From: Pseudorhodobacter sp. MZDSW-24AT
GTDB taxonomy: Bacteria > Pseudomonadota > Alphaproteobacteria > Rhodobacterales > Rhodobacteraceae
Direction: 5' to 3'
Assembly (NCBI RefSeq): GCF_002794355.1
Contig: NZ_PGOI01000009.1
Coordinates: 62,001 to 126,000 of the forward strand
DNA length: 64,000 bases
Shown here: in pieces, positions 22,878 through 46,251 of the stretch
Numbering within the stretch: position 1 is the first letter of the stretch
Layout of the letters: every line of letters starts with the position of its first letter
The notes under the pieces: generated by a model
Database searches by the model: none
The model's input: only the letters and a program-made list of their open reading frames with translations
What the model was told of the DNA's origin: nothing
Position numbers and translations under genes: made by a program

Positions 22878-22884
22878 TCTACCT

Positions 22885-24059: not shown

Positions 24060-25072
24060 GCAGGCATCCTTTCAGAGAAATCCAGTTCCTTCCAGCGCAG
24101 GCACCGCACCTCGCGCCCGGGAAGCGCGGGCTCGAGCAGGGGTTGGGTGGTGGTGCAGCGCGGTTCGGCATAAGTGCAACGGGTGGAAAAGCGACAGCCC
24201 TTGGGCAGGCGCGACAGGGCGGGCACCTGACCGGGGATGGTCAGCAAGCGCGATTTGGATTTGGAGCTGCCCAGTTTGGGGATCGAGCTCATGAGCCCGG
24301 CGGTATAGGGCATGCGCGGGCGTTCGAAGATGTCTTCGACCGGGCCGGTTTCCACCACCTGACTGGCATACATGACCACCACCCGGTTGGCGAGTTCGGC
24401 CACCACGCCAAGGTCATGCGTGATGAAGACCATCGCCATGCCAAGCTTCTGCTGCAACTCCTGCATCAGTTCAAGGATCTGCGCCTGAATGGTCACGTCG
24501 AGCGCGGTGGTGGGTTCGTCCGCGATCAGGAGGCTGGGCTGGCAGGCCAAGGCCATGGCGATCATCGCGCGCTGGCGCATGCCGCCCGACATTTCATGCG
24601 GGTAGTTGTCGGCCCGGCGGCGCGGTTCCGGAATGCCGACCAGCGCCAGCAGATCAATCGCGCGTTCATGGGCCTGTTTGGGCGTCAGGCCTTCGTGGCG
24701 GATCGGCACCTCGGCGATCTGGTGGCCGATGGTGTGCACGGGGTTCAGGCTGGTCATCGGTTCCTGAAAGATCATCCCGATGTCCTTGCCGCGCACGCCG
24801 CGCATTTCGGCTTCGGAGAGCGTGGTCAACTCGCGGCCGCGCAGCTTGATCGACCCGCGCGAGATGCGGCCCACGCCCGCGGGCAAAAGCCGCATGATCG
24901 ACAGGCTGGTGACCGACTTGCCCGAGCCGCTTTCGCCGACGATGGCAAGCGTTTCGCCCGCGTTGACCGAAAAGCTGACACCATCGACGGCAATGACCTC
25001 GAGCTTGCGGCCCAGCGAAAAGGTGGTTTGCAGGTCGGTTACTTCCAGAAGCGGGGCGGGCCGGTCTGTCAT
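24056..25072 (-). CDS. oligopeptide/dipeptide ABC transporter ATP-binding protein (OppD/DppD type)
   Basis: 338 residues. Walker [11 protein letters not shown]-loop [11 protein letters not shown], signature [15 protein letters not shown], Walker [16 protein letters not shown]-loop FITHDLGV, and the C-terminal Opp domain with [18 protein letters not shown]. Pairs with the next gene to drive one importer. It overlaps the preceding allantoinase-like gene by four bases, so uptake and catabolism share a transcript. Confidence 0.93.
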
Positions 25073-26457
25073 CCTGCGGTCTCCTGAGGGTGAGGGGTGA
25101 TGAAACGGCCAAGGCCGGGGCGTCCGGTGAGGCCGCCCTTCCAGACGGTTTGACCGGCAACAAGGGTTTGCACCACCGCGCCTTGGAAGCGGGCGCCATG
25201 GCTGAGGCGGGCGATGGAGCGGGCGGCGGTCAGCAGGCTTGCCTCGCTGATGTGGGTTTCGCCCGCCAAGTCTGCCAGCACGATATCGGCGGCCGCGCCG
25301 GGCGCAAGGCGGCCCTTGCCGGGCAGGCCAAAGCGCTGGGCGGCGGCCCCCGAGACAAGCTGCATCGCCTGCGCAAGCGTCAGCTTGCCCATCGAAACGG
25401 CATTCAGCAAGGTGGGCAGCAAGACCTCGGTGCCGGGATGGCCGGGCGGGGCGGTGAGGAAGTTTCCGTCATGCGCCGCTTTCTCTGAGGCAGAAAAGGC
25501 GGCGTGGTCGGTGGTGACATGGCCGATGGTGCCATCGGCCAGCGCGTCCCACAACGCCGCGCGGTCGGAGGCGTGGCGAATGGGCGGGTTGATCTTGGCG
25601 CAGACCCCGGCGCGGGCCACATCCTCGGCGGTGTAGCTGAGGTAATGCGGGCAGGTTTCGGCGCTGAAATCCGAGCTTCCGGCAAAGCGGCGCAGCACGT
25701 CGACGGTGGCGGCGCTGGTGACGTGGGCGATGTGCAGCTTTGCGCCGGCACTGATGTTCATGGCAAGCAGTTGCGCCACGGCGACCGCTTCGGCCAAGGG
25801 CGGGCGGGCGGCATTGTGGGTGGCGGCATCGGCCGCATCAAGGCGGGATGCATGGTCTGCCGCACGCGCCAAGAGGCCCGCATGTTCGGCATGAACGACG
25901 ACCGGGAGTCCGACACGGGCGGCCAGTTGCAGGACGCGGAGCTGATCTTCCACCTGCGGCCAAGCGAGGCCCGCGAATTCATGTTCGCGCCCGGGAGGGG
26001 CCGGTGTGGTGAAGATCTTGAAGGCGACGATGCCCGAGGCGGCCAAAGCCTCGAACGCGGCTTCGGTCAGGTCCACGGGCGCGGCGTAAAGGCCGAAGTC
26101 GATATGGGCGGTTTGCGCGAAATGGTCGCGCCGCAGGGCCACGCGGTCGGGCGTGTTGCAGCAGGGATCGGTGATCGGCATTTCGAAAACGGTGGTGATG
26201 CCGCCCTTGGCGCAGGCGGCGGTTTCCGACGCCACGGTGCCGCGTTGCGGATAGGCCGGGGCGCGGATGTGGCAGTGAATGTCGATCGCGCCGGGCAGCA
26301 CCATCAGGCCGGTGGCGTCGATGCGCTGGGCGGCTTGCGGTGTTTCGCCGGGCGGGAGGAGGGCGGCAATCTGGCCCTGACGCACCAGAACGCTGCCGGG
26401 GCGCGGCCCTTCGGGCGACAGGATCGTGCCGCCCGAGATGATCAGATCCGCCGTCAT
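25069..26457 (-). CDS. allantoinase/dihydroorotase/hydantoinase-like cyclic amidohydrolase
   Basis: 462-residue metal-dependent amidohydrolase. Ligand positions of the family are all present: HxH in IDIHCHIR, the Lys expected to be carbamylated in VAFKIFTT, His in VVHAEH and [11 protein letters not shown], and Asp in VTTDHAAF. The family opens cyclic amides (allantoin, dihydroorotate, hydantoins). With AllA-, PuuE- and AllD-like genes nearby, a ureide or lactam ring is a plausible substrate, but no specificity residue settles it. ATG at 26457 overlaps the upstream stop by four bases. Confidence 0.83.
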
Positions 26458-27875
26458 TTCAGACCCAACTCGGTCAGGGCTTGGGCCACGCCGTCCAGAT
26501 GGGTGAGGTGCATGGAGGCATAATTGGGCGACAGCACGATGCCATGCCCGCCCGCCCGATAGGTGGCATGGACGGACCGATAGGCGATGTCGGCGGTCAT
26601 CTTGGCGGTATCGGGGCGCGAACGCGGGGCATCGACACCGATGCCCATATAAACCTTGGCCTTGCCCTCTACCCCGCGCAGCGCGTCTTCGCATTGGCCG
26701 AAGACATAGGTATCGGGGTCCATCCCGGCGCCGACGATCTGATCAAACGGCGCCTCTTTCAGCCCAAGGATGCGGAACAGGGCAGTCGTCGCCTCGGCGG
26801 GGGCGAAATCGCGCAGCACGGTCTTGCGGAAGAACGACAGTTCCTTGGCCCAGACTTCGCCCGCCTGATGCTGATAGGTGATGGGCTTGACGAAATCGGC
26901 ATAGCGCGTCTGTTCGGCCCAAGGCCATTGCGCGCGGCGGATCAGGTTGAAGTGGTTGCGGTTCCAGATGTTCAGGCCGAAGGGCAGGTTGGGCTTGCAC
27001 CATTTGACCAGACCATAAAGCTCGCGGTCCAGATCCTTGTTGCGCTCCAGCCAGAACTTTTCCCAGATCAGGGCTTCGGGGTTTTCCAACAGCACGCGCA
27101 GGAAGGTGATCAGGCTGCCATCGGCAAAGGCCTTGCCTGCCGCCGCCTCTTGCATGAAGTCGTAAAGGCGCAGCAGGGCCTGACGGCAGGCCTCGACATT
27201 CACGCCGCGCGCTTCGGCCTCGGCGCGGGAGGCGGCCGAGAAATCACCGGGCGCGCCCCCTTGGATCAGCGTGTCCAGCGGGGAGTTGCGTTCGTTGCAC
27301 CACATGAAGCCGTCAAGATCGTGGTTGCGGACCTGATCTTCGATCATCGAGTGGATCCACGAGCGATAGCCGGGATGCGAGGTCGAAGGCTCGCCCCCCA
27401 GCCGTCCGAAGATATCAATGTCCATCGCTTGCGGCAGGGTGGGGATCTCGACCGCCGCCGCCGAGCCGTGGCCCGCGTATTTGAAGAACGGCTCCATCAG
27501 TTCGACATAGACCTTCATGCCGCGCTCATGGGCATCGGGGACGACCATTTTCAGGATGTCCTTGCCCGCAAACTCTGGATCGCGGCTGCGGTAATCAGCC
27601 ATGAAGGTATTGCGGTAATAGCGCGGGTCAGGGTCGAAATAGGCGCCGCCCCGCATCTGATAGGGCTCTGGCACGCCATGATCGGGCCAGCCATCCAGCG
27701 CATGGCTGATGGAGCGGCCCGATTTCAGGCCCAGCCACGACACGGTGCCCAGCATCAGCACATTGACGCCCACGCGGTTCTGGAGCGTTTCAAGCACCGT
27801 ATCGACGCCTTCATCGACGAAAGAGATCGGGCTGATCTGGATGCCGACGAATTTTTCCGAAGGGTTCGGGGTCAT
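26454..27875 (-). CDS. uncharacterised protein, probable TIM-barrel (glycoside-hydrolase-like)
   Basis: 473 residues, no signal peptide or membrane segment. I do not recognise a named family. The order of segments (KFVGIQISPISF, VNVLMLGT, HERGMKVYVELMEPF, DLDGFMWCNERNSPLD, NLPFGLNIWNRNH, FVKPITYQH, HGIVLSPNYASM) looks like successive strand ends of a (beta/alpha)8 barrel. It resembles the hypothetical glycosyl-hydrolase-like groups in which acidic residues follow strands (candidates Glu in YVELMEP and Glu in CNERN). The gene is coupled by four-base overlaps to an aminotransferase and an amidohydrolase, so it probably handles an imported metabolite in the cytoplasm. Function unknown. Confidence 0.75.
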   Translation of the reverse strand: MTPNPSEKFVGIQISPISFVDEGVDTVLETLQNRVGVNVLMLGTVSWLGLKSGRSISHALDGWPDHGVPEPYQMRGGAYFDPDPRYYRNTFMADYRSRDPEFAGKDILKMVVPDAHERGMKVYVELMEPFFKYAGHGSAAAVEIPTLPQAMDIDIFGRLGGEPSTSHPGYRSWIHSMIEDQVRNHDLDGFMWCNERNSPLDTLIQGGAPGDFSAASRAEAEARGVNVEACRQALLRLYDFMQEAAAGKAFADGSLITFLRVLLENPEALIWEKFWLERNKDLDRELYGLVKWCKPNLPFGLNIWNRNHFNLIRRAQWPWAEQTRYADFVKPITYQHQAGEVWAKELSFFRKTVLRDFAPAEATTALFRILGLKEAPFDQIVGAGMDPDTYVFGQCEDALRGVEGKAKVYMGIGVDAPRSRPDTAKMTADIAYRSVHATYRAGGHGIVLSPNYASMHLTHLDGVAQALTELGLK

Positions 27876-29050
27876 GCCGCATCCTTCCGCTTTTGCACAA
27901 AGGCGCTGATGCGGGCCATTGCCTCTTTGATGACCGGAAGCGGCTGGAGATAGCCGATGCGGATGAAATAGGGGTTTTCATCGCCAAACAGCGCGCCGGG
28001 GAACACCATCACACCGGTTTCCCGCAGCAATTGCTCGCAAAACTCGGGCGCGTTCATGCCGGTGGAGGAGATGTTGACATAGATGTAGAAGGCCCCGCCC
28101 GGGTGGCCGTAGGTGAAGCCTGCTTCGGTCAGCGCGGGCATCAGCCAATCCCGGCGCTCCTGATATTCGGCCAGCATCTCGTTGATCGGCTCTTGCGGGC
28201 CGGTCAGGGCCGCCAGCGCGGCAAACTGGCTGACGGTGCAGGTGTTGATCGACAGTGAATGGCGGGTTTCGGTCATCTTGACCACGAAATCCTTGGGCGC
28301 GGCGAGGTAACCCACCCGCCAGCCGGTCATCGCATAGGTCTTGGAAAAGCCGTTCAGCGTGATGGTGCGGTCCTTCATGCCGGGCAGGGTGGCGATGGAA
28401 AGATGCTCGTTCGGGGCATAGATCATGCGGGCATAGATTTCATCCGACACGATGATGAGATCATGCTTGATGGCGAGATCGGCGATCTTGCGGATCATGT
28501 CGGGCGGGGTGACGGCGCCGGTGGGATTGTTGGGCGTGACCAGCACGAACATCCGGGTGCGCGGCGTGATGCGCGCTTCAATCTCGGCCACGTCGAGCGC
28601 GAAGTCGTCTTTTTCATAAGTGGGCACCGGCACCGGGACGCCGCCGCACAGGTGCACCGCCGTGTCATAGGTGGTAAAGCGCGGCGAGGTTATCAGCACC
28701 TCATCCCCCGGCGCCACAAGCCCCAGCATTGTGAGCATGATGGATTCCTGCACGCCCGCGGTGACCACGATTTCATCGGGGTCATAGTCCAGCCCATAGG
28801 TGCCGTTCAGATCCGCCACGATGGCCTGACGCAGCGCGGGCAGGCCGGTGGGGCCGGTGTAATGGTGCTGGTTGGCATCGAGCGCGGCCTTGGCGGCGTC
28901 GACGATATGGGCCGGCGTGTGGAAATCGGGGTCGCCGCGCCCCATGGCGATGACATTGGTCAGGCCCGAGGCGATGCCCAGCATCCGGGTGCGGAACGAG
29001 CCGTCTTCTTCGGTGATCCGTGGGGCGAGTCGGTCTACAAGCAGGCTCAT
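27872..29050 (-). CDS. pyridoxal phosphate-dependent aminotransferase, class I/II
   Basis: 392 residues of fold-type I, AspC-like. PLP Lys lies in LNGFSKTYAMTGWRVGY; NNPTGAVT, VSDEIYARMIY and the C-terminal FFIRIGY-type Arg region are present. It is a paralogue of the aminotransferase at 35946-37133 on the other arm: they share GRGDPDxDTPAHI near the start and the YPGG/FPGALFGD end. A pair of such enzymes with RidA in the same island points to removal of an amino group from the imported compound or its fragments. Amino donor unknown. Confidence 0.9.
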   Translation of the reverse strand: MSLLVDRLAPRITEEDGSFRTRMLGIASGLTNVIAMGRGDPDFHTPAHIVDAAKAALDANQHHYTGPTGLPALRQAIVADLNGTYGLDYDPDEIVVTAGVQESIMLTMLGLVAPGDEVLITSPRFTTYDTAVHLCGGVPVPVPTYEKDDFALDVAEIEARITPRTRMFVLVTPNNPTGAVTPPDMIRKIADLAIKHDLIIVSDEIYARMIYAPNEHLSIATLPGMKDRTITLNGFSKTYAMTGWRVGYLAAPKDFVVKMTETRHSLSINTCTVSQFAALAALTGPQEPINEMLAEYQERRDWLMPALTEAGFTYGHPGGAFYIYVNISSTGMNAPEFCEQLLRETGVMVFPGALFGDENPYFIRIGYLQPLPVIKEAMARISAFVQKRKDAA

Positions 29051-30267
29051 CCGTGCATCCTCTTTCCGGCGACAAAGGTGGTGCGCACGCGTTCCAGCGC
29101 GAACAGGTCTTGATCGGGGTTGCCATCCACCACGATCACATCGGCGGCCTTGCCCACCTCGAGCGTGCCGATCAGATGATCCATTTTCGACAGGCGAGCG
29201 GCGCGGATGGTGATGGAGTGCAGCGCATCCATATTGTCGGTGCAGACGCCGACCTTGACCATATGGGCCAGTTCCGGGGCGATCACGTCATGCTCCACCG
29301 CCGGGCTGCCGGCATCGGTGCCAAAGACGATGGGGACACCAGCCTCGGCGGCTTTTTTCAGCCCCGCATAGCGCGACGGGTCGGCGACGGCCTTGATCCG
29401 CTCTTCGATCTTCCAGTCGGGAATGCCAAACTTGCGGGCAATCTCGGGCTGGCTTTGCTGCACCAAGGGCGCGAAGGTGGTGACGATCGGCAGTTTCTTT
29501 TCCAGCAGCAGGGCGATGGTTTCATCCGACATGCTGCCGCCGTGTTCGATGCAATCCACCCCGAACTTTGCCACGCGGTTGATGCAGGCATCATAGGTTG
29601 CGTGGGCTGTCACCGGCAGGCGGTTGCGGTGGGCTTCGTCGATCACCGCTTCCAGCTCGGCATCGGTGAATTCCAGCGTGTCATGGCAGGCCATGATCTT
29701 GATGAGATCCGCCCCGCCCTTGACCTGTTCGCGCACGGCGCGGCGCATTTCATCGGGGCCCGAGGCTTCGCGGCAGACCCAATAGGTGTGGCCGCCGGTC
29801 TGGATGATGGCGGCGCCGCAGACTTTCAGCCGGGGGCCGGGGAAAATGCCCTGCTCGACCGCCTGTTTGGAATAGAGGTTCATCTCGTGGAAACCCAGAT
29901 CGCGCACCATGGTGATGCCCGCGCGCAGGGATTTGAGCATGTTGCCCGCCGCCTTGAAGGCGCTCATCGGTTTGGGGTCGTCCATCGACTGGCGGGCCAG
30001 ATCGTGGATGCCGTCCCAGTTCAGATGGGCATGGCTGTTGATCATGCCGGGCATGATGGTGCCGCCGGTTTCGGTGACATGGCCTTTGGGCATGTCGGCG
30101 CGGGGGCCGACGGCAAGGATCTTGCCGCCGCCGATCTGGACAAAGCCATCCTCGATCACATCGCCCGCCATGGTCAGGACGCGCCCGGCCAAGATGCAGT
30201 CTTCGGTGGGGATGTCGAACATCGGTTTGGTGATCTTCTGATAGCGCCAGGCTGCGGGTTCGGGCAT
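29047..30267 (-). CDS. metal-dependent amidohydrolase, imidazolonepropionase/Xaa-Pro dipeptidase-like
   Basis: 406-residue amidohydrolase of the COG1228 type. HxH in INSHAHLN, Lys in GADLIKIMA (metal-bridging in relatives), His in VTAHATYD and CIEHGGSM, and Asp in VFGTDAGSP form a complete metal site. Characterised relatives cleave N-terminal or C-terminal residues from small peptides (prolidase or Lys/Arg carboxypeptidase types) or open imidazolone rings. No signal peptide, so cytoplasmic. It follows the M24 gene by 12 bases in the same operon. Confidence 0.85.
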   Translation of the reverse strand: MPEPAAWRYQKITKPMFDIPTEDCILAGRVLTMAGDVIEDGFVQIGGGKILAVGPRADMPKGHVTETGGTIMPGMINSHAHLNWDGIHDLARQSMDDPKPMSAFKAAGNMLKSLRAGITMVRDLGFHEMNLYSKQAVEQGIFPGPRLKVCGAAIIQTGGHTYWVCREASGPDEMRRAVREQVKGGADLIKIMACHDTLEFTDAELEAVIDEAHRNRLPVTAHATYDACINRVAKFGVDCIEHGGSMSDETIALLLEKKLPIVTTFAPLVQQSQPEIARKFGIPDWKIEERIKAVADPSRYAGLKKAAEAGVPIVFGTDAGSPAVEHDVIAPELAHMVKVGVCTDNMDALHSITIRAARLSKMDHLIGTLEVGKAADVIVVDGNPDQDLFALERVRTTFVAGKRMHG

Positions 30268-30279: not shown

Positions 30280-31428
30280 TCAGGCGGGGATGATGCGGGT
30301 GTGTGCGGGATGGTCGGATTGGAAGCGGCTTGCGGTTTCGCAGCCGGTTTCGGTGACGATGAGCGTCTCGATACAGCGCCAACCGTCGAGATCGGGGCGG
30401 TAGATGCCGGGTTCACAGGAAAACACCATGCCGGGGGCGGCAGGTGTGGCATCGCCGGGAGAGAGCCACGGGGCTTCATGCCCTTCGACCCCCATGCCAT
30501 GGCCGATGCGGTGGCGGATGGCATCTGCAAACCCGGCGGTGCGGATCGGGTCCAAGGCTGCGTCGTTCACCGCTGCACAGGGCAGACGGCGCGACAGCGC
30601 GTCGACCGTGGCGGCATTGGCGGCGTCCATCGCGGCCATGACGCGCGCCTGATCTTGGGTGATGTCCCCATAGACCAGCGTGACCCCGCTTTCGGCGTGA
30701 TAGCCGCCCAGCGAACAGCCGATGCCTGCGATGATCGGCTCGCCCTTTTGTGGGCGACGGGCCAGCACGGTGCCATGGGGCAGGGCCGCGCGCGGGCCGG
30801 AATGCACGGAGGCGGTGATGCCCAGCTTGGTGCCCTGAAACGCCGCGCCATGGGTGGCGCCAAGCGCCGCGCGGGCATGGCCGGTGGCATCGGCCATCAG
30901 GTCCAGCTCGGTGCCGCCGCCGCTGATGATGTCGGCCCCGGCTGACAGCAGACGGGTCAGAACCATGTCGGCAAAGCGCGCGGCTTCCCGGATCAGGGCA
31001 AGCTCGTCGGGGTGTTTGATGGCGCGTTCGGGCAGGATGTGGTCGGAGAGCGAAATCTCGGCGATTTCTTTCGCCGTCGAGAGCAACCGCGCGTCGAGCG
31101 CGTCAATGCCGACGCGGCGTGCCTGTGTTTGCCCTAGCATCCAGAGCACAGGCGGCACCTCGCCCGGAAATTCGGGGTAGGTGGCGACCGAGACGCCGGG
31201 CACCGAAAGCGCGTTTTCCAGTTCCAGATGTGGCACCATCAGTACCGGATCGCCCGACACGGGCAGCCAAAGGCCCATGGGCCGTTCGTTCACCGAAAAC
31301 ATCCAGCCGGTGGCATAGGCCAGATTGCCGGGAGCAAGGATCAAGAGACCGTCGAGCCCCGAGGCCGCTGCCCTTGCGCGCAGCCGGTCCCTGACTCTGT
31401 CGCGAAAGTCGGGAGGCAGCGGTTTCAT
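30280..31428 (-). CDS. M24-fold hydrolase lacking canonical metal ligands (creatinase-like)
   Basis: 382 residues with the two-domain pita-bread fold: a creatinase-type N-terminal domain (to about 140) and an M24 catalytic domain. The usual metal Asp pair is missing: where peptidases read DxG...GYxSDxTR, this one reads AGIGCSLGGYHAESGVT. The conserved His (RIGHGMGVEGHE) and Glu positions (FSCEPGIY, CIETLIV) remain. Creatinase and related C-N hydrolases such as ectoine hydrolase DoeA also depart from the peptidase pattern, so a non-peptide amidine or ring substrate is possible. Four-base overlap with the dehydrogenase gene upstream. Confidence 0.84.
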   Translation of the reverse strand: MKPLPPDFRDRVRDRLRARAAASGLDGLLILAPGNLAYATGWMFSVNERPMGLWLPVSGDPVLMVPHLELENALSVPGVSVATYPEFPGEVPPVLWMLGQTQARRVGIDALDARLLSTAKEIAEISLSDHILPERAIKHPDELALIREAARFADMVLTRLLSAGADIISGGGTELDLMADATGHARAALGATHGAAFQGTKLGITASVHSGPRAALPHGTVLARRPQKGEPIIAGIGCSLGGYHAESGVTLVYGDITQDQARVMAAMDAANAATVDALSRRLPCAAVNDAALDPIRTAGFADAIRHRIGHGMGVEGHEAPWLSPGDATPAAPGMVFSCEPGIYRPDLDGWRCIETLIVTETGCETASRFQSDHPAHTRIIPA

Positions 31429-32504
31429 AGGACAGTGTCCTGATAGGGCCCGACGGTCTCGATCTCGGCGGCGATCCCCAGTTCGCGGCCCAGATTGCGC
31501 AGATCGGCCAGCACTTCATCATCCAGAGGCACGCCTGCGGCGGATTTGCGGGCAACGCGGCGCGCCTCTTGCTCGCCCGGCAGCAGGATTTCGCTGAAGC
31601 CGGGGCGCAGGGCGCGGGATTTGACCATGCGGGCAAAGTCGTCCATGCGGGCGCGGAACTCCTCGAGCGGCATGAACCATTCAATGTCGATTGCGGTCAG
31701 GGTGTGGCTGACATCCAGCTTTGCCTGATCGGAATAGGGCGTGAGGCCATAACCGCCGCCGCCGATCACCCCGGTCAGCACATCGGTCATGAAGGCAAGG
31801 CCATAGCCTTTGTAGGTGCCGATCCCGAGCAAGGCCCCGGCCATGGCGGCATTGGGATCATCGGTTTCGGCGCCTTCGGGGGTCAGCGCCCAGTCGAGTG
31901 GCATGGGTTTGCCTTCGCGGGCGTGCCATTGCATCATGCCTTTGCCTGCCGTGGTGAGCGCGATGTCCATGACGACCGGAAAGCCAAGGCCGGTGGGGGC
32001 GGCGATGCCCCATGGGTTGGTGCCCACCGCGCCTTCGCGCCCGCCCCAAGGCGCCATTTCCGGCCCCGCATTGGTGAAGGAGGTGCCGATGCAGCCAGCC
32101 TCGGCCGCCTGAACGGCGTGGACGGCGCTGCTGCCGTAATGGGTGGAGTTGCGCACGATCACCTGACCGATGCCGCAGACCTTGGCCTTTTGAATCGCCA
32201 GCCGCATGGCGCGGGCGGCGGCCACGGTGCCGATGCCGTTATGCGCATCGACCAGCGCCAGCGCGGGGCTTTCCTTCACCACTTCCCAAGGGGCGGAAAC
32301 ATTGACGAGTCCGGCGGCGATCCGTTCCTGATAGCGGCGCAGGCGGCGGACGCCTTGGCCGTGCCCGGGGTGAAAGCGCAGTTCGGAGAAGATCAGCGCA
32401 TCGGCGAAGATGGTCGCGTCTTCCTCGGTCAGACCGAGGGCGCGGAAGCCCTGCACCATGAAGGTTTGCAGGCTGTCGCGGGTGACGGATGTCATCTTGA
32501 TCAT
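31425..32504 (-). CDS. Ldh/AllD-family NAD(P)-dependent dehydrogenase
   Basis: 359 residues of the malate/L-lactate dehydrogenase type-2 superfamily, which includes ureidoglycolate dehydrogenase AllD and delta1-piperideine-2-carboxylate reductase. Typical segments are HPGHGQGVRRLRRY (His-rich N-terminus), ALVDAHNGIGTVAA, VRNSTHYGSSAVHA and GTNPWGIAAP, then DIALTTAGKGMMQ. The start at 32504 is used because GGAGG lies seven bases upstream; ATG at 32495 is the alternative. Given AllA-, AllB- and PuuE-like genes in the island, a 2-hydroxy- or 2-imino-acid linked to ureide or lactam breakdown is plausible but unproven. Confidence 0.85.
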   Translation of the reverse strand: MIKMTSVTRDSLQTFMVQGFRALGLTEEDATIFADALIFSELRFHPGHGQGVRRLRRYQERIAAGLVNVSAPWEVVKESPALALVDAHNGIGTVAAARAMRLAIQKAKVCGIGQVIVRNSTHYGSSAVHAVQAAEAGCIGTSFTNAGPEMAPWGGREGAVGTNPWGIAAPTGLGFPVVMDIALTTAGKGMMQWHAREGKPMPLDWALTPEGAETDDPNAAMAGALLGIGTYKGYGLAFMTDVLTGVIGGGGYGLTPYSDQAKLDVSHTLTAIDIEWFMPLEEFRARMDDFARMVKSRALRPGFSEILLPGEQEARRVARKSAAGVPLDDEVLADLRNLGRELGIAAEIETVGPYQDTVL

Positions 32505-32505
32505 G

Positions 32506-33390
32506 TCAGGCCTCCACGCCCATGAGGTCGGCGATGTTTGCCGTGTCGGTGAGGAAACTGCCCAACTGCCCGGAGGGGGCGGTCATCAGCAGGCAGATGC
32601 CGGGGCCATAGCCCGCGCGCGGGCCATCGGTGGCGCAGACCACGCCGATGGCATGGGCGCCGCGCAGATAGCCGTGGTTGTAGCGGCTGTCGGTGTCTTC
32701 CAGCGCCACAAGGTCGCCCAGCCGCAGCTTGTCGAGCCCGCGTTCGGCCAGTTGGGCGCGGTCGGTGGATTGCATGTGAATGCTGCCGCCTTCGGAAGTC
32801 AGGCCCAGTCCGGCGCCCACCAGATGGGCGGGGATGCGGGCCGCCACGCCAAATTCGATGCGCGCGCCTTCGTGGCGGCAGGGCAGCAAGGACAAGAGAT
32901 TGGGTGCGATGCCTTTGAGCATCACCTCAGGGTGGTCGGTCAGCGCGAGGCCCATCCCTTCGGATCGGATCAGGATCTGATCGCCCACCGCCATTTTCGT
33001 GCGGGCCTCTTTCGGGAAATGCAGGATGACCTGTTCCGAAAAGCGGCCGGATTTTCCCGTCACCACGCCGACGCTGCCCGCGGCCTGCCCGGTCATCACC
33101 TTGGCGCGATTGCCGATGCAGGCATAGACATTGAGGCCCCGGTTGCGGGTGTCTTCGGCCTGACGGATCGAGACGCCGGGATGGATGCAATCGGCGGCCC
33201 AGCCGAAGGCCCGGTCGCCCACGCTGACATTATAGACGATGCCGCCATAGGTGGGCAGCAAGAAGGCGGTGCCATCGGCGGCAAGGCGGTAGGGCTCGGC
33301 AGGCAGGCCCGGAAAGCCCGGGTGCGCGATGGACCCGGCGACCGACACGGCAACCAGATCGGCGGCATTTGTGGCAAGGGGCGCGGTCAT
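32506..33390 (-). CDS. DUF4438 family protein A
   Basis: 294 residues. Resembles the DUF4438 family as I remember it: GGIVYNVSVGDRAFGW, the CIHPGVSI turn (usually GDHxEPGVSI), ACIGNRAKVMTG, GVVTGKSG, KLRLGDLVALEDTDSRYNHGYLRGAHAIGVVC and GYGPGICLLMT. Characterised activity of the family is not known to me. Compared with its neighbour, the usual D-H-x-E stretch reads D-C-I-H, so a possible metal or catalytic site may differ. It overlaps DUF4438 B by four bases. Confidence 0.8.
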   Translation of the reverse strand: MTAPLATNAADLVAVSVAGSIAHPGFPGLPAEPYRLAADGTAFLLPTYGGIVYNVSVGDRAFGWAADCIHPGVSIRQAEDTRNRGLNVYACIGNRAKVMTGQAAGSVGVVTGKSGRFSEQVILHFPKEARTKMAVGDQILIRSEGMGLALTDHPEVMLKGIAPNLLSLLPCRHEGARIEFGVAARIPAHLVGAGLGLTSEGGSIHMQSTDRAQLAERGLDKLRLGDLVALEDTDSRYNHGYLRGAHAIGVVCATDGPRAGYGPGICLLMTAPSGQLGSFLTDTANIADLMGVEA

Positions 33391-34256
33391 GTCAGGCTCC
33401 GGATGTTCAGGGATTGGGCGATGTTGGCGGCAGGGTCGACGGTAAAGCCAAGGCTCTCCGCCGGGCCGGTGATCAGGGTCAGGATGCCGGGGCCATGGCC
33501 TGTCATCACCGAATCGCCGTGGATGCAGAGGCAGATCGCCACCCAGCCGGGCCGGAACGAGCGGCCAAAGCGGTGGTCGACATCGCGGATGGCAATAAGG
33601 TCGCCCAGTTTCATCTGATCGATGCCAAGATCGGCCATCAGGGCGCGATCGCCCGACATCAGGTCCTGATCGACATATTCCGCGTTCAGCTCTGCCCCCG
33701 AGCCCATGATGCGCGCGGGCAGTTCCATGGCGACGGGGCAGATGATCTGACCGTTTTCTTCGCGCAGGCCATAGGCGCGGGCCAATGCGGGGCTGGTTTT
33801 CTTGAATTCAATCGCGGGGTGGTTGGCCAACCGGATGCCACGGCCCTTGGCGCGGATCTGGATGGTGTCGCCGATCATCAGGTCTTCCAGCACCTCGGGC
33901 GCGAAATCGACGAGGATGCGGGCATGTTCGCCGGTGACGATGCCTTTGGCACCACGGGCGAGGCCTGTCATCACCTCGGCTTCATTGCCGATGCAGGTCA
34001 GGTAATGCAGTGCGAAATCGGCCTTTTCGTCGCCGTTGGCGATGGACACGCCCGGCTCTACATGATCGCCCGCCCAGCCAAAGGCCCGGTCACCCACCCG
34101 TGCGTTGTAAGCGATGCCCGACATGCCGGGCAGAATGGCGGCGCGGCCATCGGGCCAGTGCAGATAAGCGCCTTGCCGCATCGTTGGCTGACTGACCTGC
34201 CCGGTCACGGCCATTTCGACAAGATCATCAACGTTCCAAACCAGGCTCTCGGTCAT
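33387..34256 (-). CDS. DUF4438 family protein B, first gene of the left arm
   Basis: 289 residues, paralogue of the preceding protein (shared order: GIAYNARVGDRAFGWAGDHVEPGVSI, TCIGNEAEVMTG, GIVTGEHA, MKLGDLIAIRDVDHRFGRSF, GHGPGILTLIT). Here the GDHVEPGVSI motif is intact with Asp, His and Glu. The GGGGAG before the ATG at 34256 is a good ribosome site. It is the first gene of a ten-gene minus-strand operon, divergent from the M32 carboxypeptidase across the operator region. The tandem pair may form a heteromer; function unknown. Confidence 0.8.
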   Translation of the reverse strand: MTESLVWNVDDLVEMAVTGQVSQPTMRQGAYLHWPDGRAAILPGMSGIAYNARVGDRAFGWAGDHVEPGVSIANGDEKADFALHYLTCIGNEAEVMTGLARGAKGIVTGEHARILVDFAPEVLEDLMIGDTIQIRAKGRGIRLANHPAIEFKKTSPALARAYGLREENGQIICPVAMELPARIMGSGAELNAEYVDQDLMSGDRALMADLGIDQMKLGDLIAIRDVDHRFGRSFRPGWVAICLCIHGDSVMTGHGPGILTLITGPAESLGFTVDPAANIAQSLNIRSLT

Positions 34257-34420: not shown

Positions 34421-35941
34421 ATGGGTTACGCCGCGTTTGCTGAACGTATGGGTCAGGTCAATGATCTCTTGAATGCCAAGTCTATTCTGGCTTGGGATGC
34501 GCGCACGATGATGCCAGCGGGCGGCGCAGAGACGCGGGCCAAGCAATTGGCGACGCTTTCGGTGCTGGCGCGCGATCATCTGGTGGCGGATGAAACCCGC
34601 AGCCTGCTGGACAAGGCAGAGGCCGAAGTTTCCAGCCTGCCTGAAGACAGTGTCGAGCGCACAATTTGTGCGCAGACGCGGGAAGCGATTGACTATCACC
34701 TGCGGATTCCGGCCGATCTGGTGCGCCGCCGGGCGGAAACCGGGTCGATCGGGCAAGACATCTGGGCGCGGGCGCGCGCCGCCGATGATTACGCGACCTT
34801 TGCCCCGGTGCTGGAGGAAACCGTTGCCCTGAACCGGGAGATGGCCGAGCACATCGGCTATTCCGCCCATCCCTATGACGCGCTGATGCATCGGTTTGAA
34901 CCGGGCGAGACGGTGGCCTCGTTGAACACGCTGTTTGCGCAATTGCGCGACGGGATGCTGCCGCTGCTGCGCGCGATTGCGCAAAAGGAAGGGCCGCGCT
35001 TTGATTTCCTTCAGCGCCCGTTCCCCAAGGAGCAGCAACTTGCCTTTGGTCTGAAGATGGCCGAGCGCGTGGGCTATGACCTGAACCGGGGACGGCTGGA
35101 CACCACGGTTCACCCGTTCGAGGTGTCTTTCACCCGCAATGATGTGCGCATCACCACCCGTGTGGTGGAGGAATGGATGCCCGCCTGTCTGTTCGGGTCG
35201 CTGCACGAAGCAGGCCATGCCCTGTATGAGCAGTATTGCGACCCGGCCTTTACCCGCACGCCGCTGGCGACCGATCTGGTCGGGCTTTACGCGGTGGGGG
35301 GTGTCAGTTTTGGCGCGCATGAAAGCCAGTCGCGCCTGTTTGAAAACCATGTGGGCCGCAGCCGGGAGTTCTGGGAGCTGAACTTTGCCGAGGCGCAGGC
35401 CGCGTTCCCCGACCAGTTGTCGGACATTGATGCCGAAACCTTCTGGCGCGCGGTCAACCGCGTGGCGCCGGGGTTCATCCGGGTGGAAGCCGATGAGCTG
35501 ACCTATGACTTCCACATCATGCTGCGGGTGGATCTGGAGGCCGCGCTGATCGACGGCAGCCTGAAGGTGGCGGATCTGCCCGAGGCATGGAATGCCAAGA
35601 TCAAGGAATATCTGGGTCTTGATGTGCCGAACAATCGCTTGGGTGTGCTTCAGGATGTGCACTGGTCTTCGGGCCAGATCGGGACCTTCTGCAACTATAC
35701 CATTGGCAATGTGATGGCAGGCCAGCTGTTCGAGGTGGCAACGCAGGATGCCACCGTGGCCGCGGGCATGGCCTCGGCCGATTATGTGCCGCTGCGCAAG
35801 TGGATGACCGAGCATGTGCATCGCCACGGGCGCCGCTACAGCCGCAACCAGTTGCTGGAAAAGGCAACCGGGCGTGCCTTGGACCCGGCCCCCTATATCG
35901 CGCACCTGACCGCCAAATATTCTGAAATCTACGGGATCTGA
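34421..35941 (+). CDS. carboxypeptidase M32 (Taq family)
   Basis: 506-residue metallocarboxypeptidase. The zinc motif HExxH appears as LHEAGHALYEQ (about residue 262), followed by the family hallmarks GAHESQSRLFENHVGRS, VRVEADELTYDFHIMLR and LGVLQDVHWSSGQIGTFCNYTIGN. M32 enzymes remove C-terminal residues from peptides in the cytoplasm. First gene of the right arm, behind promoter/operator site 1. AGCAGG before the ATG at 34421 supports the start. It may trim the imported compound. Confidence 0.94.
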   Translation: MGYAAFAERMGQVNDLLNAKSILAWDARTMMPAGGAETRAKQLATLSVLARDHLVADETRSLLDKAEAEVSSLPEDSVERTICAQTREAIDYHLRIPADLVRRRAETGSIGQDIWARARAADDYATFAPVLEETVALNREMAEHIGYSAHPYDALMHRFEPGETVASLNTLFAQLRDGMLPLLRAIAQKEGPRFDFLQRPFPKEQQLAFGLKMAERVGYDLNRGRLDTTVHPFEVSFTRNDVRITTRVVEEWMPACLFGSLHEAGHALYEQYCDPAFTRTPLATDLVGLYAVGGVSFGAHESQSRLFENHVGRSREFWELNFAEAQAAFPDQLSDIDAETFWRAVNRVAPGFIRVEADELTYDFHIMLRVDLEAALIDGSLKVADLPEAWNAKIKEYLGLDVPNNRLGVLQDVHWSSGQIGTFCNYTIGNVMAGQLFEVATQDATVAAGMASADYVPLRKWMTEHVHRHGRRYSRNQLLEKATGRALDPAPYIAHLTAKYSEIYGI

Positions 35942-35945
35942 TCCG

Positions 35946-37133
35946 ATGACCGAAGCCAGCAGCCGCCTTGCCTCCCGCGTCAAGCTTAAAGACGCGCATC
36001 TTGTGACCCGGATGACCGATATCGCCGAGGGCCTGCCTGATGTGATCAAGCTGGGCCGGGGCGACCCCGATCTGGACACGCCCGCGCATATCATCAAGGC
36101 GGGGCAGGAGGCGCTGGCCAATGGGGCCACGCATTACATGCACCCCTTGGGGATGCCCGCGTTGCGCCGGGCGATCGCCGACAACATCGCGGCCTATGGC
36201 GGTGCGCGCTATGAGCCGGAGAATATCGTGGTGACGCCCGGTGGGCAGCACGCGATGTTCGTGATCGCCTTGGCGCTTTTGAACCCCGGCGACGAGATTC
36301 TGGTGCCTTGCCCGGGCTATAACCCCTATCATCAGGCTGCCGAGATGGCCGGGGCCGAGACGGTGCACATCCGCACCTCGATGGAGACGAATTTCTGCGT
36401 CACCGCCGAAATGGTGCGGGCGCATATCACGCCGCGGTCAAAGATCCTTGTGCTGATCAATCCGAACAACCCCACCGGCACCGTGACCCCGCCCGCCGAG
36501 GTGGCGCGGATTGCCGAGGTGGCCAAGGAACACGACCTGATCGTGATTTCCGATGAGATCTATGCGCGGCTGACCTATGGCAACCACACCGTGCAGCCGG
36601 TGGCCGCGCTGCCGGGGATGTTTGAGCGCACGATCACGCTGTCGGGCATGTCCAAGGCCTATGCGATGACGGGGTGGCGGATCGGCTATTTCGCGGGGCC
36701 GCCTGATCTGATCCCGGCGCTGGCCGAGATCAACCATGCCTTCGCCATTTCCACCACCTCCGTCAGCCAGCATGCGGCGCTTGCCGCGCTGACGGGGCCG
36801 CAGGATTGTGTGGAAGACATGCGCGCCATCTATGACGAGCGGCGCCGGGTGCTGTGCGCCGGGCTGACCGAACTGGGCATTCCCTATGCCGAGCCGCAGG
36901 GGGCGTTTTACGTTTACGCCGATGTGTCGAAAACCGGGATCGGAGCCACGCTGTTTTGCGAGCGTCTGCTGCGCGAAGGCCAAGTGCTGATGTATCCGGG
37001 CGGGATTTACGGCGATTACACCGATGATTTCGTGCGCATGTCGCTGACCCAACCCGTTGCCCGCATCCGCGAGGCGATGACCCGTATGAAAGCGGTGGTC
37101 GAGACCATCCGCGCCGAAACCCGCGCTGCCTGA
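35946..37133 (+). CDS. pyridoxal phosphate-dependent aminotransferase, class I/II
   Basis: 395 residues; PLP Lys in LSGMSKAYAMTGWRIGY, NNPTGTVT, ISDEIYARLTY and C-terminal FVRMSLTQPV. Paralogue of the enzyme at 27872-29050 (nearly the same segments around the cofactor and GRGDPDLDTPAHI). It lies four bases after the M32 gene in the right-arm operon. A role in deaminating amino acids or amino-acid-like products released by the peptidases is inferred. Confidence 0.9.
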   Translation: MTEASSRLASRVKLKDAHLVTRMTDIAEGLPDVIKLGRGDPDLDTPAHIIKAGQEALANGATHYMHPLGMPALRRAIADNIAAYGGARYEPENIVVTPGGQHAMFVIALALLNPGDEILVPCPGYNPYHQAAEMAGAETVHIRTSMETNFCVTAEMVRAHITPRSKILVLINPNNPTGTVTPPAEVARIAEVAKEHDLIVISDEIYARLTYGNHTVQPVAALPGMFERTITLSGMSKAYAMTGWRIGYFAGPPDLIPALAEINHAFAISTTSVSQHAALAALTGPQDCVEDMRAIYDERRRVLCAGLTELGIPYAEPQGAFYVYADVSKTGIGATLFCERLLREGQVLMYPGGIYGDYTDDFVRMSLTQPVARIREAMTRMKAVVETIRAETRAA

Positions 37134-37144
37134 AGGAGGACAGG

Positions 37145-37624
37145 ATGAAAACCGACAACCCGAATGTGATCGGCATCAAGCACATGGCCTTTGGCGTGCG
37201 CGATGCGGAAAAGGCGCTGGAGACCTATGCGCGGTTTCTGGACGTGCCTGCGGATACGGAAATCACCGTCTTTCCGAAATCCAAGAACAAGGTCGCGCTC
37301 TTTAACCTGGGCGGGATCGAATACCAGCTGTGTGAATCGCTGGACCCCGAGGGGCGTTTTGCCAAGTGGATCGATGAGCGCGGCCACGAAGGGCTGCACC
37401 ACATCTGCTATGAGGTGAGCAACATCGATGACGCCTTGGCCCATGCGCAGGCCAAAGGGGCCAGTCTGCGCATCTGTCAGGCGTGCCAGAAATATGGCTC
37501 GCATCCGCATCCCGAAGGGTGGGTGGCCTTCCTCGACAATGATGCGGGCGGCATCGAGATCGAGTTCATGCAGGTCTACACGCCTGAGCAGCTGAAAGAA
37601 TACGAAGCGTTCAAGGGGATCTGA
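37145..37624 (+). CDS. VOC-superfamily protein, methylmalonyl-CoA epimerase-like
   Basis: 159 residues with paired beta-alpha-beta-beta-beta modules. Metal-ligand positions of the family are visible: His in GIKHMAFGV, Glu or Gln in YQLCES, His in GLHHICYEV and Glu in GIEIEFMQV. Closest pattern is methylmalonyl-CoA epimerase or glyoxalase. In this island it might isomerise or cleave a small acid intermediate. SD AGGAGG lies before the start; it is two bases from the deacylase gene downstream. Confidence 0.82.
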   Translation: MKTDNPNVIGIKHMAFGVRDAEKALETYARFLDVPADTEITVFPKSKNKVALFNLGGIEYQLCESLDPEGRFAKWIDERGHEGLHHICYEVSNIDDALAHAQAKGASLRICQACQKYGSHPHPEGWVAFLDNDAGGIEIEFMQVYTPEQLKEYEAFKGI

Positions 37625-37625
37625 G

Positions 37626-38615
37626 ATGAGCGGAAAGACCATAACCGTTGGCACCGCTTCGGCCGAGCCCGGCAGCATCGCGCGGGGCGTGATCCCGGTG
37701 ACGACTTTGGCCGGGGGCACCGCGCTGGACATTCCGGTGGTGATCGTGAACGGCGTGAACGCAGGCCCGGTGTTCTGGGTGAACGGGGCCATCCACGGCG
37801 ACGAACCCGAAGGCCCGCTGGCCTGTCAGATCGCGTTGGCCGAGGTGGACCCGGCGCACCTGTCGGGCACGCTGGTGATGTGCCCGGTGGTGAACGTGCC
37901 TGCGTTCGAGGCGGCGCAGCGCGGCAATCCGGCGGATACCTTCAGCTATGACATGAACCGCATCTATCCGGGGCGCGAGAACGGCTATCTGTCCGAACGC
38001 GTGGCCGCCGCCCATGCCGCCGCGATGGGGCCGCTGGCGGATTTCGAGATCTCGATCCATTCCGGGGGCGCGCATTCCTTTCTCGACAAGTCGATGTTCA
38101 TCGACGAGTCGCCGGAAAGCGTGGAGCTTGGCACCGCGATGGGGCCGGGCTGGGGGTGCATCATGTCGAACTTCAACCCGACAGGCAGCCCGATGGCCTA
38201 TCTGAAAAAGCTGGGCAAGGTGGGCATCACGGTGGAGCTTGGCGGGCGTTCGGCCACCTCTCCCGAGGCCTTTGCGCGCATCGGGCGCGAGCTGGCCAAT
38301 TCCATCCTGAACATCCTGCGCCATTACAAGATGTATCCGGGGCAGGCCGAATACCCGTCGCCCCGCTACAAGGGACAGCAAGAGGCGTTGTTGGCTCCGG
38401 CCTCGGGGATCTTTGTGCCCGAGCCGGGCGTGGCCTTCCTGACCATGATGAAGAAGGGCGACCGGATCGCGCGGATCAAGAGCATTTTCGGCGATGTGCT
38501 GGGCGAGATCGTGGCCCCGGCCGATGGCATGTTCTTTGGTCTGCGCGCCTTGCCCAATGTCACCACCGGTGACTGGTGCTGCTTCTTCTGCAAGGTCGAA
38601 GGAACGAGGGACTGA
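37626..38615 (+). CDS. succinylglutamate desuccinylase/aspartoacylase (AstE/AspA) family hydrolase
   Basis: 329 residues, M14-like zinc amidohydrolase. Zinc ligands His and Glu in GAIHGDEPEG, NVPAFEAAQRGNP and DMNRIYPG (substrate carboxylate binding), zinc His in SIHSGG, and catalytic Glu in TVELGGRS. Family members remove acyl groups from N-acyl amino acids; DoeB of ectoine breakdown is one. Together with the creatinase-like M24 gene this makes a DoeA/DoeB-like pair, though the substrate need not be ectoine. No ectoine transporter or doeX/doeD set is seen. Confidence 0.88.
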   Translation: MSGKTITVGTASAEPGSIARGVIPVTTLAGGTALDIPVVIVNGVNAGPVFWVNGAIHGDEPEGPLACQIALAEVDPAHLSGTLVMCPVVNVPAFEAAQRGNPADTFSYDMNRIYPGRENGYLSERVAAAHAAAMGPLADFEISIHSGGAHSFLDKSMFIDESPESVELGTAMGPGWGCIMSNFNPTGSPMAYLKKLGKVGITVELGGRSATSPEAFARIGRELANSILNILRHYKMYPGQAEYPSPRYKGQQEALLAPASGIFVPEPGVAFLTMMKKGDRIARIKSIFGDVLGEIVAPADGMFFGLRALPNVTTGDWCCFFCKVEGTRD

Positions 38616-38620
38616 CCCGG

Positions 38621-39544
38621 ATGGATCATGTGCGCGACCTTGTGGGCTACAGCGGCTCTGCATCGCCCGACATCTCCTGGCCAAATGGCGGGCGGGTCGC
38701 GGTCAATTTCGTGATGAATTACGAGGAAGGCTCGGAGTATTCGATCGGGGACGGTGACGGGAAATCCGACACCGTGCTGACCGAGGTTTCGTCCCCCCGC
38801 GTGCCGGTGGGGCAGCGTGATCTGGCCGCCGAGAGCATGTTTGAATATGGCAGTCGCGTTGGCTTTTGGCGCATTTACCGGCTGTTTCAGGAGACCGGGC
38901 TGCCGATGACGGTTTTCGCGTCGGCCTTGGCGCTGGAGCGGCACCCGGAAGTTGCGCAGGCGCTGCGGGACACCGACTGGGATATGGTGTGCCACGGGTG
39001 GCGCTGGGTGGAGCATTACCTGCTGGATGAGGCGACCGAGCGCGACCACATCGCGCGGGGGCATGAGGTGATCTCGCGCCTGATCGGTCGCCCGCCCGAA
39101 GGGTTTTACTGCCGCTATGGGCCGTCGACGGCCACGCGGCGGTTGGTGGTGGAGCATGGCGGCTACAGCTATGACAGCGACGCCTACAACGATGACCTGC
39201 CTTATTGGTGCACCGTTGGCGGGCGTTCGCATCTGGTGGTGCCCTATTCTCAGGTGACGAATGACGCCAAGCTGGTGGGCGGGCCGCTGGTGACGGGGCG
39301 GGCGTTCGGCGAGTTTCTGATCGACAGCTTTGAAGGCTTTGTCGCCGAGGCGCATCTGCATCCGCGCATGATGTCGGTGGGGATGCACACGCGGATTCTG
39401 GGCCATCCGGGGCGGCTTGCCGGGCTGCGCATGTTCATCGACCATATCAAGGGCCATAAGGAAGCTTGGATCTGCCGCCGCAGCGATCTTGCGCAGCATT
39501 GGCGTCTGCACGTGCCGCCGCCTGCGCCCGAGGTTGCGGCATGA
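38621..39544 (+). CDS. PuuE-like allantoinase, polysaccharide-deacetylase fold
   Basis: 307 residues. It matches the PuuE/allantoinase group of the polysaccharide deacetylase superfamily: RDLVGYSG at the start, RVAVNFVMNYEEGSE, ESMFEYGSRVGFWRIYRLF, VCHGWRWVEHY, TRRLVVEHGGYSYDSDAYNDDLPYW. PuuE opens allantoin to allantoate without being a classic amidohydrolase. The stretch that reads TGRTSPNTRR in my recollection of uric-acid-cluster PuuE reads CRYGPSTATRR here, so the substrate may differ. The start at 38621 follows GAGGG. It overlaps AllA by four bases. Confidence 0.84.
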   Translation: MDHVRDLVGYSGSASPDISWPNGGRVAVNFVMNYEEGSEYSIGDGDGKSDTVLTEVSSPRVPVGQRDLAAESMFEYGSRVGFWRIYRLFQETGLPMTVFASALALERHPEVAQALRDTDWDMVCHGWRWVEHYLLDEATERDHIARGHEVISRLIGRPPEGFYCRYGPSTATRRLVVEHGGYSYDSDAYNDDLPYWCTVGGRSHLVVPYSQVTNDAKLVGGPLVTGRAFGEFLIDSFEGFVAEAHLHPRMMSVGMHTRILGHPGRLAGLRMFIDHIKGHKEAWICRRSDLAQHWRLHVPPPAPEVAA

Positions 39545-40050
39545 TCCTGACCCCCATCCCCGCTGATGCGGCTGCCTTTGCGCGCTTTGGCACCTTGGTT
39601 GAAAAGCCCGAGGTTGCCGGAGAGCGGCGCATGTTCAGTGAGTGGCTGCCCGCGCAGGATGGATTGGCGCTTCAGTTTCATCTGAACCATGTTGCGCCGA
39701 CGCGGCTGCCAAGCCCGCTTTCGCAGGTGGAGCGGCACCCTCATTCGGCGCAGGTTTTCCTTCCGGTGGATGTGTCGCGCTATCTGGTGGTGGTGATGCC
39801 ACGGATGGCGGATGGCGCGCCCGATCTGTTGCACGCGGTCTGCTTTGAGGTGCCGGGCAGTGTGGGCGTGATCTATCGGCGCGATGTCTGGCATGCGGGA
39901 ATGATGGTGCTGGACCGTCCGGGAAGCTTTGCCGTGCTGATGTCGCGCGGCGCGCAGGATGATGATGTGTTTCTGCCCATTCCCCCCCTTACGCTTTCCG
40001 CACGGTCGGGCCATGACCTGCGGATCACAAGAAACGGACACACCGCATGA
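39541..40050 (+). CDS. allA: ureidoglycolate lyase family protein
   Basis: 169 residues, cupin-fold AllA family. Segments MILTPIPADAAAFARFGTLVE, FHLNHVAPTRLPSPLSQVERHPHSAQVFLPV (with the conserved His and Glu) and GVIYRRDVWHAGMMVLDRPGSFAVL match AllA, which splits ureidoglycolate to glyoxylate and urea. Adjacent to PuuE as in uric-acid clusters, but urate oxidase, OHCU decarboxylase and transthyretin-like genes are absent from the window. The real substrate may be a ureido or carbamoyl acid made from the imported compound. Confidence 0.85.
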   Translation: MILTPIPADAAAFARFGTLVEKPEVAGERRMFSEWLPAQDGLALQFHLNHVAPTRLPSPLSQVERHPHSAQVFLPVDVSRYLVVVMPRMADGAPDLLHAVCFEVPGSVGVIYRRDVWHAGMMVLDRPGSFAVLMSRGAQDDDVFLPIPPLTLSARSGHDLRITRNGHTA

Positions 40051-40949
40051 CACATACCCCCCGCCTGTTCGTGCCGCTGATCACGCCTTTTGCGGCGGAT
40101 CTTTCGGTCGATCTGCCCCGGCTGACGGCTGTCGCGCAGCGCATGCTGGATGATGGCGCCGATGGGCTTGCCCCGTTCGGGACCACATCAGAGGCCACTT
40201 CGATGAGCGTGGAAGAGCGCATGGCGGCTCTGGAGGCGCTGGTGGCGGCGGGCATTGCGCCGTCTTGCCTGATCCCCGGCACCGGCTGCGCGGCCTTGCC
40301 GGATACCATCCGCCTGACCAAACACGCGGTGGCGCTGGGCGTGCGGGGCACGCTGACGCTGCCGCCCTTCTTTTACAAACCTGTGTCCGAAGAGGGCGTC
40401 TTTGACTCCTATGCGCGGGTGATCGAGGCCGTGGGGCCGGGCTTGCGCCTGTTCCTGTATCACATTCCGCAGATGTCGGGCGTGGCGATCACCGTGACGC
40501 TGATCGGGCGGCTGATGGAGGCTTTTCCGGGGGTGGTGGCAGGGTTGAAGGACAGTTCCGGCAACTGGGAGAACACCGCCGCCATCATCGCGGCCTTTCC
40601 GCAGATCGAGACGTATTCGGCCTCAGAGGCGCTGCTGTCCAAGAATGTGGCCGCCGGTGGCGCGGGCTGTATCAGCGCAAGCGCCAATGTAAACGCCCAT
40701 GGCATTGCCGCGCTGATCCGGGGCCTTGGCACGGCGGAGGAAGGCAAGTTGCAGGCCGATGCGGCGGCCATCCGCAGCCTGTGTGAAAAGCTGCCCTTGA
40801 TCCCCGGGGTAAAGGCGATCGTGGCCCGCCGCATGCAGGATGCGGGCTATGCCAGAGTGCGCCCGCCGCTGGTGGCGGTGGGGCAGGATCATTCCGACGC
40901 GGTGAAAAAGGTCGCCACCCTGAGTTATGGAGAGAGTGCAAGTGTCTGA
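40047..40949 (+). CDS. DapA-family (dihydrodipicolinate synthase/N-acetylneuraminate lyase) aldolase
   Basis: 300-residue (beta/alpha)8 class I aldolase. It has FGTTSEA (family GTTGE), the Tyr of FLYHIPQMSG, and the Schiff-base Lys in AGLKDSSGNW. Members condense or cleave pyruvate with aldehydes; here a catabolic cleavage releasing pyruvate is plausible. It overlaps allA by four bases and its 3' end contains the regulator's ribosome site. Confidence 0.88.
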   Translation: MTHTPRLFVPLITPFAADLSVDLPRLTAVAQRMLDDGADGLAPFGTTSEATSMSVEERMAALEALVAAGIAPSCLIPGTGCAALPDTIRLTKHAVALGVRGTLTLPPFFYKPVSEEGVFDSYARVIEAVGPGLRLFLYHIPQMSGVAITVTLIGRLMEAFPGVVAGLKDSSGNWENTAAIIAAFPQIETYSASEALLSKNVAAGGAGCISASANVNAHGIAALIRGLGTAEEGKLQADAAAIRSLCEKLPLIPGVKAIVARRMQDAGYARVRPPLVAVGQDHSDAVKKVATLSYGESASV

Positions 40950-43633: not shown

Positions 43634-43637
43634 CACA

Positions 43638-45191: not shown

Positions 45192-45202
45192 CCTGACCCC
45201 TG

Positions 45203-45229: not shown

Positions 45230-45266
45230 TATCTTCCTCCTCCTCAACATCCAAAGGACTGCCCCG

Positions 45267-46241: not shown

Positions 46242-46251
46242 GGAGGCGGAC

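Follow-up and report, generated by a model that had tools for sequence, protein, structure and literature searches.

A conserved overlapping pair of DUF4438 genes, one copy intact and one stripped of the family signature, that may divide the labour between them

Pairs of an enzyme and a catalytically dead paralogue are described in trypanosomatids, where complex formation and activation are reported for AdoMetDC with its prozyme and for the deoxyhypusine synthase pair (PMC5201418, PMC3663545). In DUF4438 itself, the solved proteins closest to those studied here are the two entries for TM1086 of Thermotoga maritima (PDB 3dcl, 3n99). The DUF4438 crystal structure dates from 2008, but we found no paper that assigns a function to the family, including under the name TM1086. 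Literature searches with 'DUF4438' or 'PF14505' returned no paper, and hence none that describes a pair or a fusion of such proteins. The TM1086 entries hold 5 (3dcl) and 30 (3n99) chains, and for an earlier crystal form an asymmetric unit exceeding 1 MDa is reported (PMC2661377). A larger DUF4438 assembly is possible.

The 64,000-nucleotide stretch of Pseudorhodobacter DNA analysed here (the window) carries two adjacent DUF4438 genes on the reverse strand. Protein B (289 aa, 33387..34256) is an intact copy with the complete family signature. Protein A (294 aa, 32506..33390) is a stripped or re-tooled copy, in which all 11 signature positions are replaced. The stop codon of B and the start codon of A lie within an ATGA at 33387..33390, so that 4 bases are common to both genes, and B and A are likely to be translationally coupled through this overlap. 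The earlier note had described tandem DUF4438 paralogues encoded by overlapping genes, and this description holds. Both proteins are full-length and match the N- and C-terminal domain profiles of the family far above the cut-offs (24.9 bits for PF14505 and 27 bits for PF20999): A scored 170.8 and 122 bits, and B 154.7 and 135.5 bits, respectively. Sequence identity between the two is 38% along almost their full length. The profile search thereby rules out that A and B come from different families, one of the results that the earlier note had named as fatal to its proposal. A family search found no third DUF4438 copy in the genome to which the window belongs.

What sets the two copies apart is a set of residues that B keeps and A has lost. 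We aligned 149 distinct homologues: 40 B proteins, 40 A proteins, 65 sequences from loci where one copy was seen (labelled single) and 4 others. The signature defined here, HEHMSDDGRHH, comprises H65, E67, H111, M184, S186, D196, D198, G231, R232, H246 and H254 in B numbering. It was complete in 40/40 B proteins and in 62 of the 65 singles, the other three deviating at one position each. None of the 40 A proteins had the full signature or retained any of its positions, although one A row was cut before the last position. Part of this difference had been noticed from the window alone, as the motif GDHVEPGVSI of B (G63-I72, 34041..34070, reverse strand) against ADCIHPGVSI of A (A66-I75, 33166..33195, reverse strand). 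The alignment bears it out, with H65 and E67 present in all 40 B proteins and all 65 singles and C and H in their place in all 40 A proteins; the motif covers two of the 11 altered signature positions. Two further pairs from the window's family that lay outside the alignment showed the same combination of an intact and a stripped copy.

The same pattern emerges when the comparison takes in the 74 columns with a conservation of 90% or more in singles. Among these, A has lost the 11 signature residues and K101, all of which B retains; these losses occurred in 40/40 A proteins at every column except K101 (21/40), which the signature excludes. Conversely, the conserved glycines at 46, 112, 189, 195 and 242 are lost in B and retained by A. 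Among the 11 charged positions with at least 98% conservation in singles, the majority of A proteins have lost 8 and the majority of B proteins none. The three that A also retains are D130, D203 and D219. The remaining eight (H65, E67, H111, D196, D198, R232, H246 and H254) constitute a putative active site, because they vanish as a block in A, and nearly so in the N-terminal halves of the fusion proteins described below, while B keeps them all. In this way, comparing an intact with a stripped copy names likely active-site residues without knowledge of the substrate.

The loss of all 11 signature residues would be expected if A were a functionless, decaying duplicate that happens to lie next to B. 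We consider this very improbable. Comparison of the window with five relatives gave a dN/dS of 0.08-0.18 for A; for B, it was 0.03-0.18. Mean identity was 72% both among A proteins and among B proteins. Eight of the replacements in A are fixed in 40/40 sequences, at B positions 65 (C), 67 (H), 111 (S), 186 (A), 196 (S), 198 (H), 231 (N) and 232 (H), including the seven polar residues C68, H70, S114, S203, H205, N238 and H239 of A. Moreover, A was present in 35 of 36 cluster loci, the remaining locus stopping at a contig edge. A has lost the signature yet is under purifying selection, and is not a relic; on dN/dS and the fixed replacements we reject decay.

A contig scan with the A-B alignment yielded 45 loci, a search that by design favours close relatives. 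In the 36 close loci among them, B was present in all and A followed it in all except the one at a contig edge. A divergently oriented M32 gene lay upstream of B in 34/36 loci and an Ldh_2 gene followed A in 34/36, the other loci being cut there by contig ends. Other neighbours, including the M24 gene and an allantoinase-like gene, were missing from view in some of the 36 loci. The overlap was exactly 4 nt in 31 of the 39 pairs other than that of the window, and 37 of the 39 overlap or stand at most 3 nt apart, with gene starts as chosen by script. Carriers belong to Paracoccaceae, Ahrensiaceae, Rhizobiaceae, Devosiaceae and Aurantimonadaceae, and include MAGs labelled Reyranella, Acidobacteria and Gemmatimonadetes. 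Alphaproteobacteria share the B-A order and the surrounding two-armed cluster of about 20 genes (window 23091-47178) with MAGs that bear the labels Gemmatimonadetes and Acidobacteria. This synteny suggests that the cluster moved as a unit. Plasmid records gave no match to protein B, and a plasmid search with the DNA of 31000-35000 matched two records, in short pieces within the Ldh_2 and M32 genes.

Because the contig scan favours close relatives, whole genomes were also searched with the Pfam model; each genome sample includes the genome on which it was centred. Within the window's family, 7/295 genomes matched, and all seven carried two adjacent copies. Likewise, all 11 of the cluster-bearing genomes looked up (out of the 36 cluster loci) were two-copy genomes. 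Thus, the pair is conserved within the window's family, as the earlier note had proposed to check, but not across DUF4438 at large. In the window's phylum, 69/398 genomes matched. Two of them have a pair, namely that of the window and a relative; of the rest, one is a single from the same class and 66 lie outside the class, in families f35, f38, f57 and f78. Among these 66 we found no adjacent full-length pair; one genome had two full-length matches on separate contigs. In the phylum of an Oscillospiraceae genome, 48/299 genomes matched, of which 47 were single-copy and one (G855) had two adjacent copies. Both copies in G855 have the full signature, which shows that two copies can be neighbours without dividing the labour; the G855 pair would be a duplication that is recent or put to a different use. 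The sample from the phylum of a Gemmatimonadales MAG gave 6/249 matching genomes, with four pairs and two singles.

Since most DUF4438 genomes elsewhere are single-copy, in varied contexts, pairing is a property of particular lineages rather than of the family. For the family as a whole, this is one of the outcomes that the earlier note had named as refuting its proposal, which is therefore supported in part. The existence of singles without a partner also indicates that the fold by itself can do without A. We clustered the neighbourhoods of 48 loci, including one fusion and the G855 pair; a DUF4438 ORF was called in 43 of them. No neighbour family recurred in more than 8/48 loci, which led us to abandon these neighbourhoods as a guide to function. 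Neighbours included the adenosine deaminase family (6 loci), the nitrilase family (5) and Leu/Phe-tRNA protein transferase (4). At four loci outside the window's class (L080-L083), a single DUF4438 gene lies between Leu/Phe-tRNA protein transferase and nitrilase-family genes, assigned by Pfam at L080 and by blastp cluster at the other three.

A similar arrangement occurs as a single protein in Acidobacteriota, where 8/247 genomes matched; two were single, and six encoded the two units together in one ORF, with an open frame of 627-778 aa. Fused double proteins of this kind are those of L046 (8975-10858) and L168-L173. Like the A/B pair, these fusions combine a stripped unit with an intact or nearly intact one. 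In the N-terminal unit, H65, E67, H111, D196, D198, H246 and H254 are absent from 6/6 and R232 from 5/6, although up to two signature letters are kept (e.g., M184, S186, G231 or the one R232). Five fusions carry the exact signature in their C-terminal unit, and that of the sixth deviates at 231 and 232. In terms of the charged positions, the majority of N-halves have lost nine of the 11 and the majority of C-halves one; the eight residues lost as a block in A are gone from the N-halves bar one R232, and retained by the C-halves bar one R232. The fusions differ from the pair in being one polypeptide, in the order stripped-intact and in having a signal-like stretch of hydrophobic residues ahead of the first unit, seen by eye in 6/6 and absent from A and B. 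They also differ in the replacements within the stripped half, which are R/Q, T and F at the first three signature positions, and N/H, H/S/C, K/R, A/S/G and L/M further on. No genes of the cluster were found within the 12 kb examined around the L046 fusion.

By majority, nine columns are lost in both A and the N-half and kept in both B and the C-half (H65, E67, H111, M184, D196, D198, R232, H246 and H254). The glycines at 46 (kept in 3/6 N-halves), 112 and 195 show the opposite pattern, and columns 49, 113, 153, 155 and 247 are lost in all four classes. The losses of A and the N-half overlap at 18 columns against 7.3 expected (p 3.6e-8), and those of B and the C-half at 8 against 4.6 (p 0.04). 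Overlaps were also raised between A and B (8 columns, p 0.04) and between the two fusion halves (13 columns, p 0.0035); all these p values are rough, because the columns are not independent.

Do the pair and the fusions descend from one duplication or two? A first, quick tree (97 rows, all columns, midpoint rooting) carried long-branch warnings and placed B with the two L046 halves (support 90, on long branches), with A elsewhere. The second tree excluded the trait columns and contained 61 rows, sampling 12/40 A, 12/40 B, 5/6 of each fusion half and 27/67 singles. Here, A and B were sisters (94/88), and so were the fusion halves (100/98). A constraint joining B with the C-halves was rejected (p 0.006) and one joining A with the N-halves was not (p 0.06), the groups for both tests having been named after the first tree was seen. 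Two separate duplications with the same outcome, one a pair and the other a fusion, are favoured by these trees, though not proved.

Modelled with AlphaFold (mean pLDDT 91.4), B has the fold of TM1086, matching 3dcl with Z 41.1 and an rmsd of 1.4 over 278 residues; in a sequence search the two TM1086 entries were also the only solved relatives of B found. TM1086 resembles B in carrying GDHVEPGVS and GHGPG; A lacks the signature. We found no convincing fold relative of B beyond TM1086; over residues ~16-138, it resembles F1-ATPase subunits in their beta-barrel, at a level that is common (Z ~8). In the model, the ends of strands and the loops hold most of the signature residues, several of them around a lower-confidence stretch (181-200). 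A natural fusion was modelled over 591 residues from 41 aligned sequences, with a mean pLDDT of 88.3 and a pTM of 0.87. We read this pTM as predicting a defined packing of the two halves, though all single-domain rows were aligned to the C-half.

The best reading of these results is that DUF4438 would be an oligomeric, probably metal-dependent enzyme, of which one partner subunit has become non-catalytic in these lineages. We favour, with somewhat better than even confidence, a division of labour in which B works and A is a non-catalytic partner. B and A would then be two subunits of one heteromeric protein, and a physical heteromer, as the earlier note had suggested, seems probable to us in view of the conserved overlap and the fusions. 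B would be the working subunit, its nearly invariant polar set resembling a metal-binding hydrolytic site. H, E and D as ligands would fit a metal-dependent hydrolase, a tentative assignment that we put at slightly under even. After the duplication, A would have lost the site but kept the scaffold under purifying selection, and may complete or stabilise the oligomer and the pocket of B. In Acidobacteriota, a similar division of labour might be found within a single protein, with the stripped half preceding the intact half. The active/inactive pair put forward in the earlier note is strongly supported at the sequence level by the absence of all 11 residues from A, the conserved pairing and the six of six fusions; the step from signature to active site is one that we infer.

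In this respect, B and A would resemble the trypanosomatid pairs, which combine an enzyme with a dead paralogue. A shows the loss of signature and the purifying selection expected of a prozyme-type partner, provided that the signature is indeed the active site. The trypanosomatid proteins belong to an unrelated family, and complex and activation are reported for them but predicted here. A further difference from those pairs is that in DUF4438 a similar arrangement also comes as a fused protein. Gene pair and natural fusion thus offer two ready-made systems for asking whether the dead twin is needed.

Two other readings overlap in part with the division of labour. Possibly, A is a second enzyme, in which the invariant C68, H70, H205 and H239 form a new site (e.g., Cys-His) where the old one was. 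A and B would then be responsible for successive or different steps, whether or not they form a complex. The fixation of C68, H70, S114, S203, H205, N238 and H239 in all 40 A proteins fits this idea, as does the fact that the fusion N-halves bear other replacements than A. However, with 93 of 282 well-filled columns invariant in A anyway, fixation alone is weak support, and several of the replacements, among them S, A and Y as well as the Q/A/S/T at B246, are unlike ligands. We regard a second enzyme as unlikely. Rather unlikely, in our judgement, is that DUF4438 is no enzyme at all and serves as a sensor or chaperone that binds a ligand or metal, with B binding and A modulating. Single copies in varied contexts, which share no common operon, and the want of a convincing fold relative beyond TM1086 would suit such a role. 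Yet near-invariance at eight H/D/E/R positions is seen more typically in enzymes, and the operon copies belong to a catabolic cluster in which hydrolases, dehydrogenases and aminotransferases surround them.

The preferred division of labour, with B working and A as its partner, still allows that A holds a different site built from C68, H70, H205 and H239. A bolder version would combine these elements: DUF4438 as a new family of metal-dependent C-N hydrolases whose oligomer gave up half its sites twice, independently, the stripped copy becoming an obligatory partner, as an overlapping pair in a transferred cluster and as a probably exported fusion. The A of the operon may then have gained a Cys-His site, giving a heteromer with two chemistries. 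As a whole, we think this version improbable.

The genes around the pair place this branch of DUF4438 in a catabolic cluster that is conserved and comprises about 20 genes, and for which we found no paper. On the left arm (reverse strand), A is followed by a dehydrogenase of the Ldh_2 family (31425..32504) and an M24 creatinase/prolidase-like hydrolase (30280..31428), with a class I/II aminotransferase further on (27872..29050). Between the latter two lies an amidohydrolase (29047..30267) whose solved relatives include the L-arginine carboxypeptidase Cc2672. Next come a 473-aa protein (26454..27875), an allantoinase/dihydropyrimidinase-like amidohydrolase (25069..26454, within a listed ORF that reaches upstream to 26694) and the OppD- and OppF-like ATPases of a peptide-type ABC transporter (23091..25072). 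The divergent right arm (forward strand) begins with an M32 carboxypeptidase (34421..35941), followed by an aminotransferase, a glyoxalase-like protein, an AstE/AspA deacylase, a PuuE-type allantoinase, an AllA-type lyase and a DHDPS family member (35946..40949). A family 5 solute-binding protein and two permeases (43560..47178) would complete the transporter, which is thus split between the two arms.

This gene content points to the uptake and stepwise opening of what may be a peptide-like or ring-shaped nitrogen compound. Within it, B might act on a compound imported by the Opp-type transporter, cleaving a C-N bond of the cyclic amide, amidine or peptide-like kind. Hints at the substrate diverge, with allantoinase-, ectoine- and guanidino-type similarities, and none of the listed NCBIfam matches reaches its cut-off. 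The 473-aa protein is strongly conserved in the cluster. It had no Pfam or NCBIfam match at E 0.001, and against the PDB it showed weak similarity to alpha-amylase-type enzymes (best E 0.048). At E 1e-20, it was found in exactly the 7/295 genomes of the window's family that carry DUF4438. Genes for a phosphonate-type ABC transporter and a YKOF-family gene (window 15211-22898, reverse strand) adjoin the left end of the cluster.
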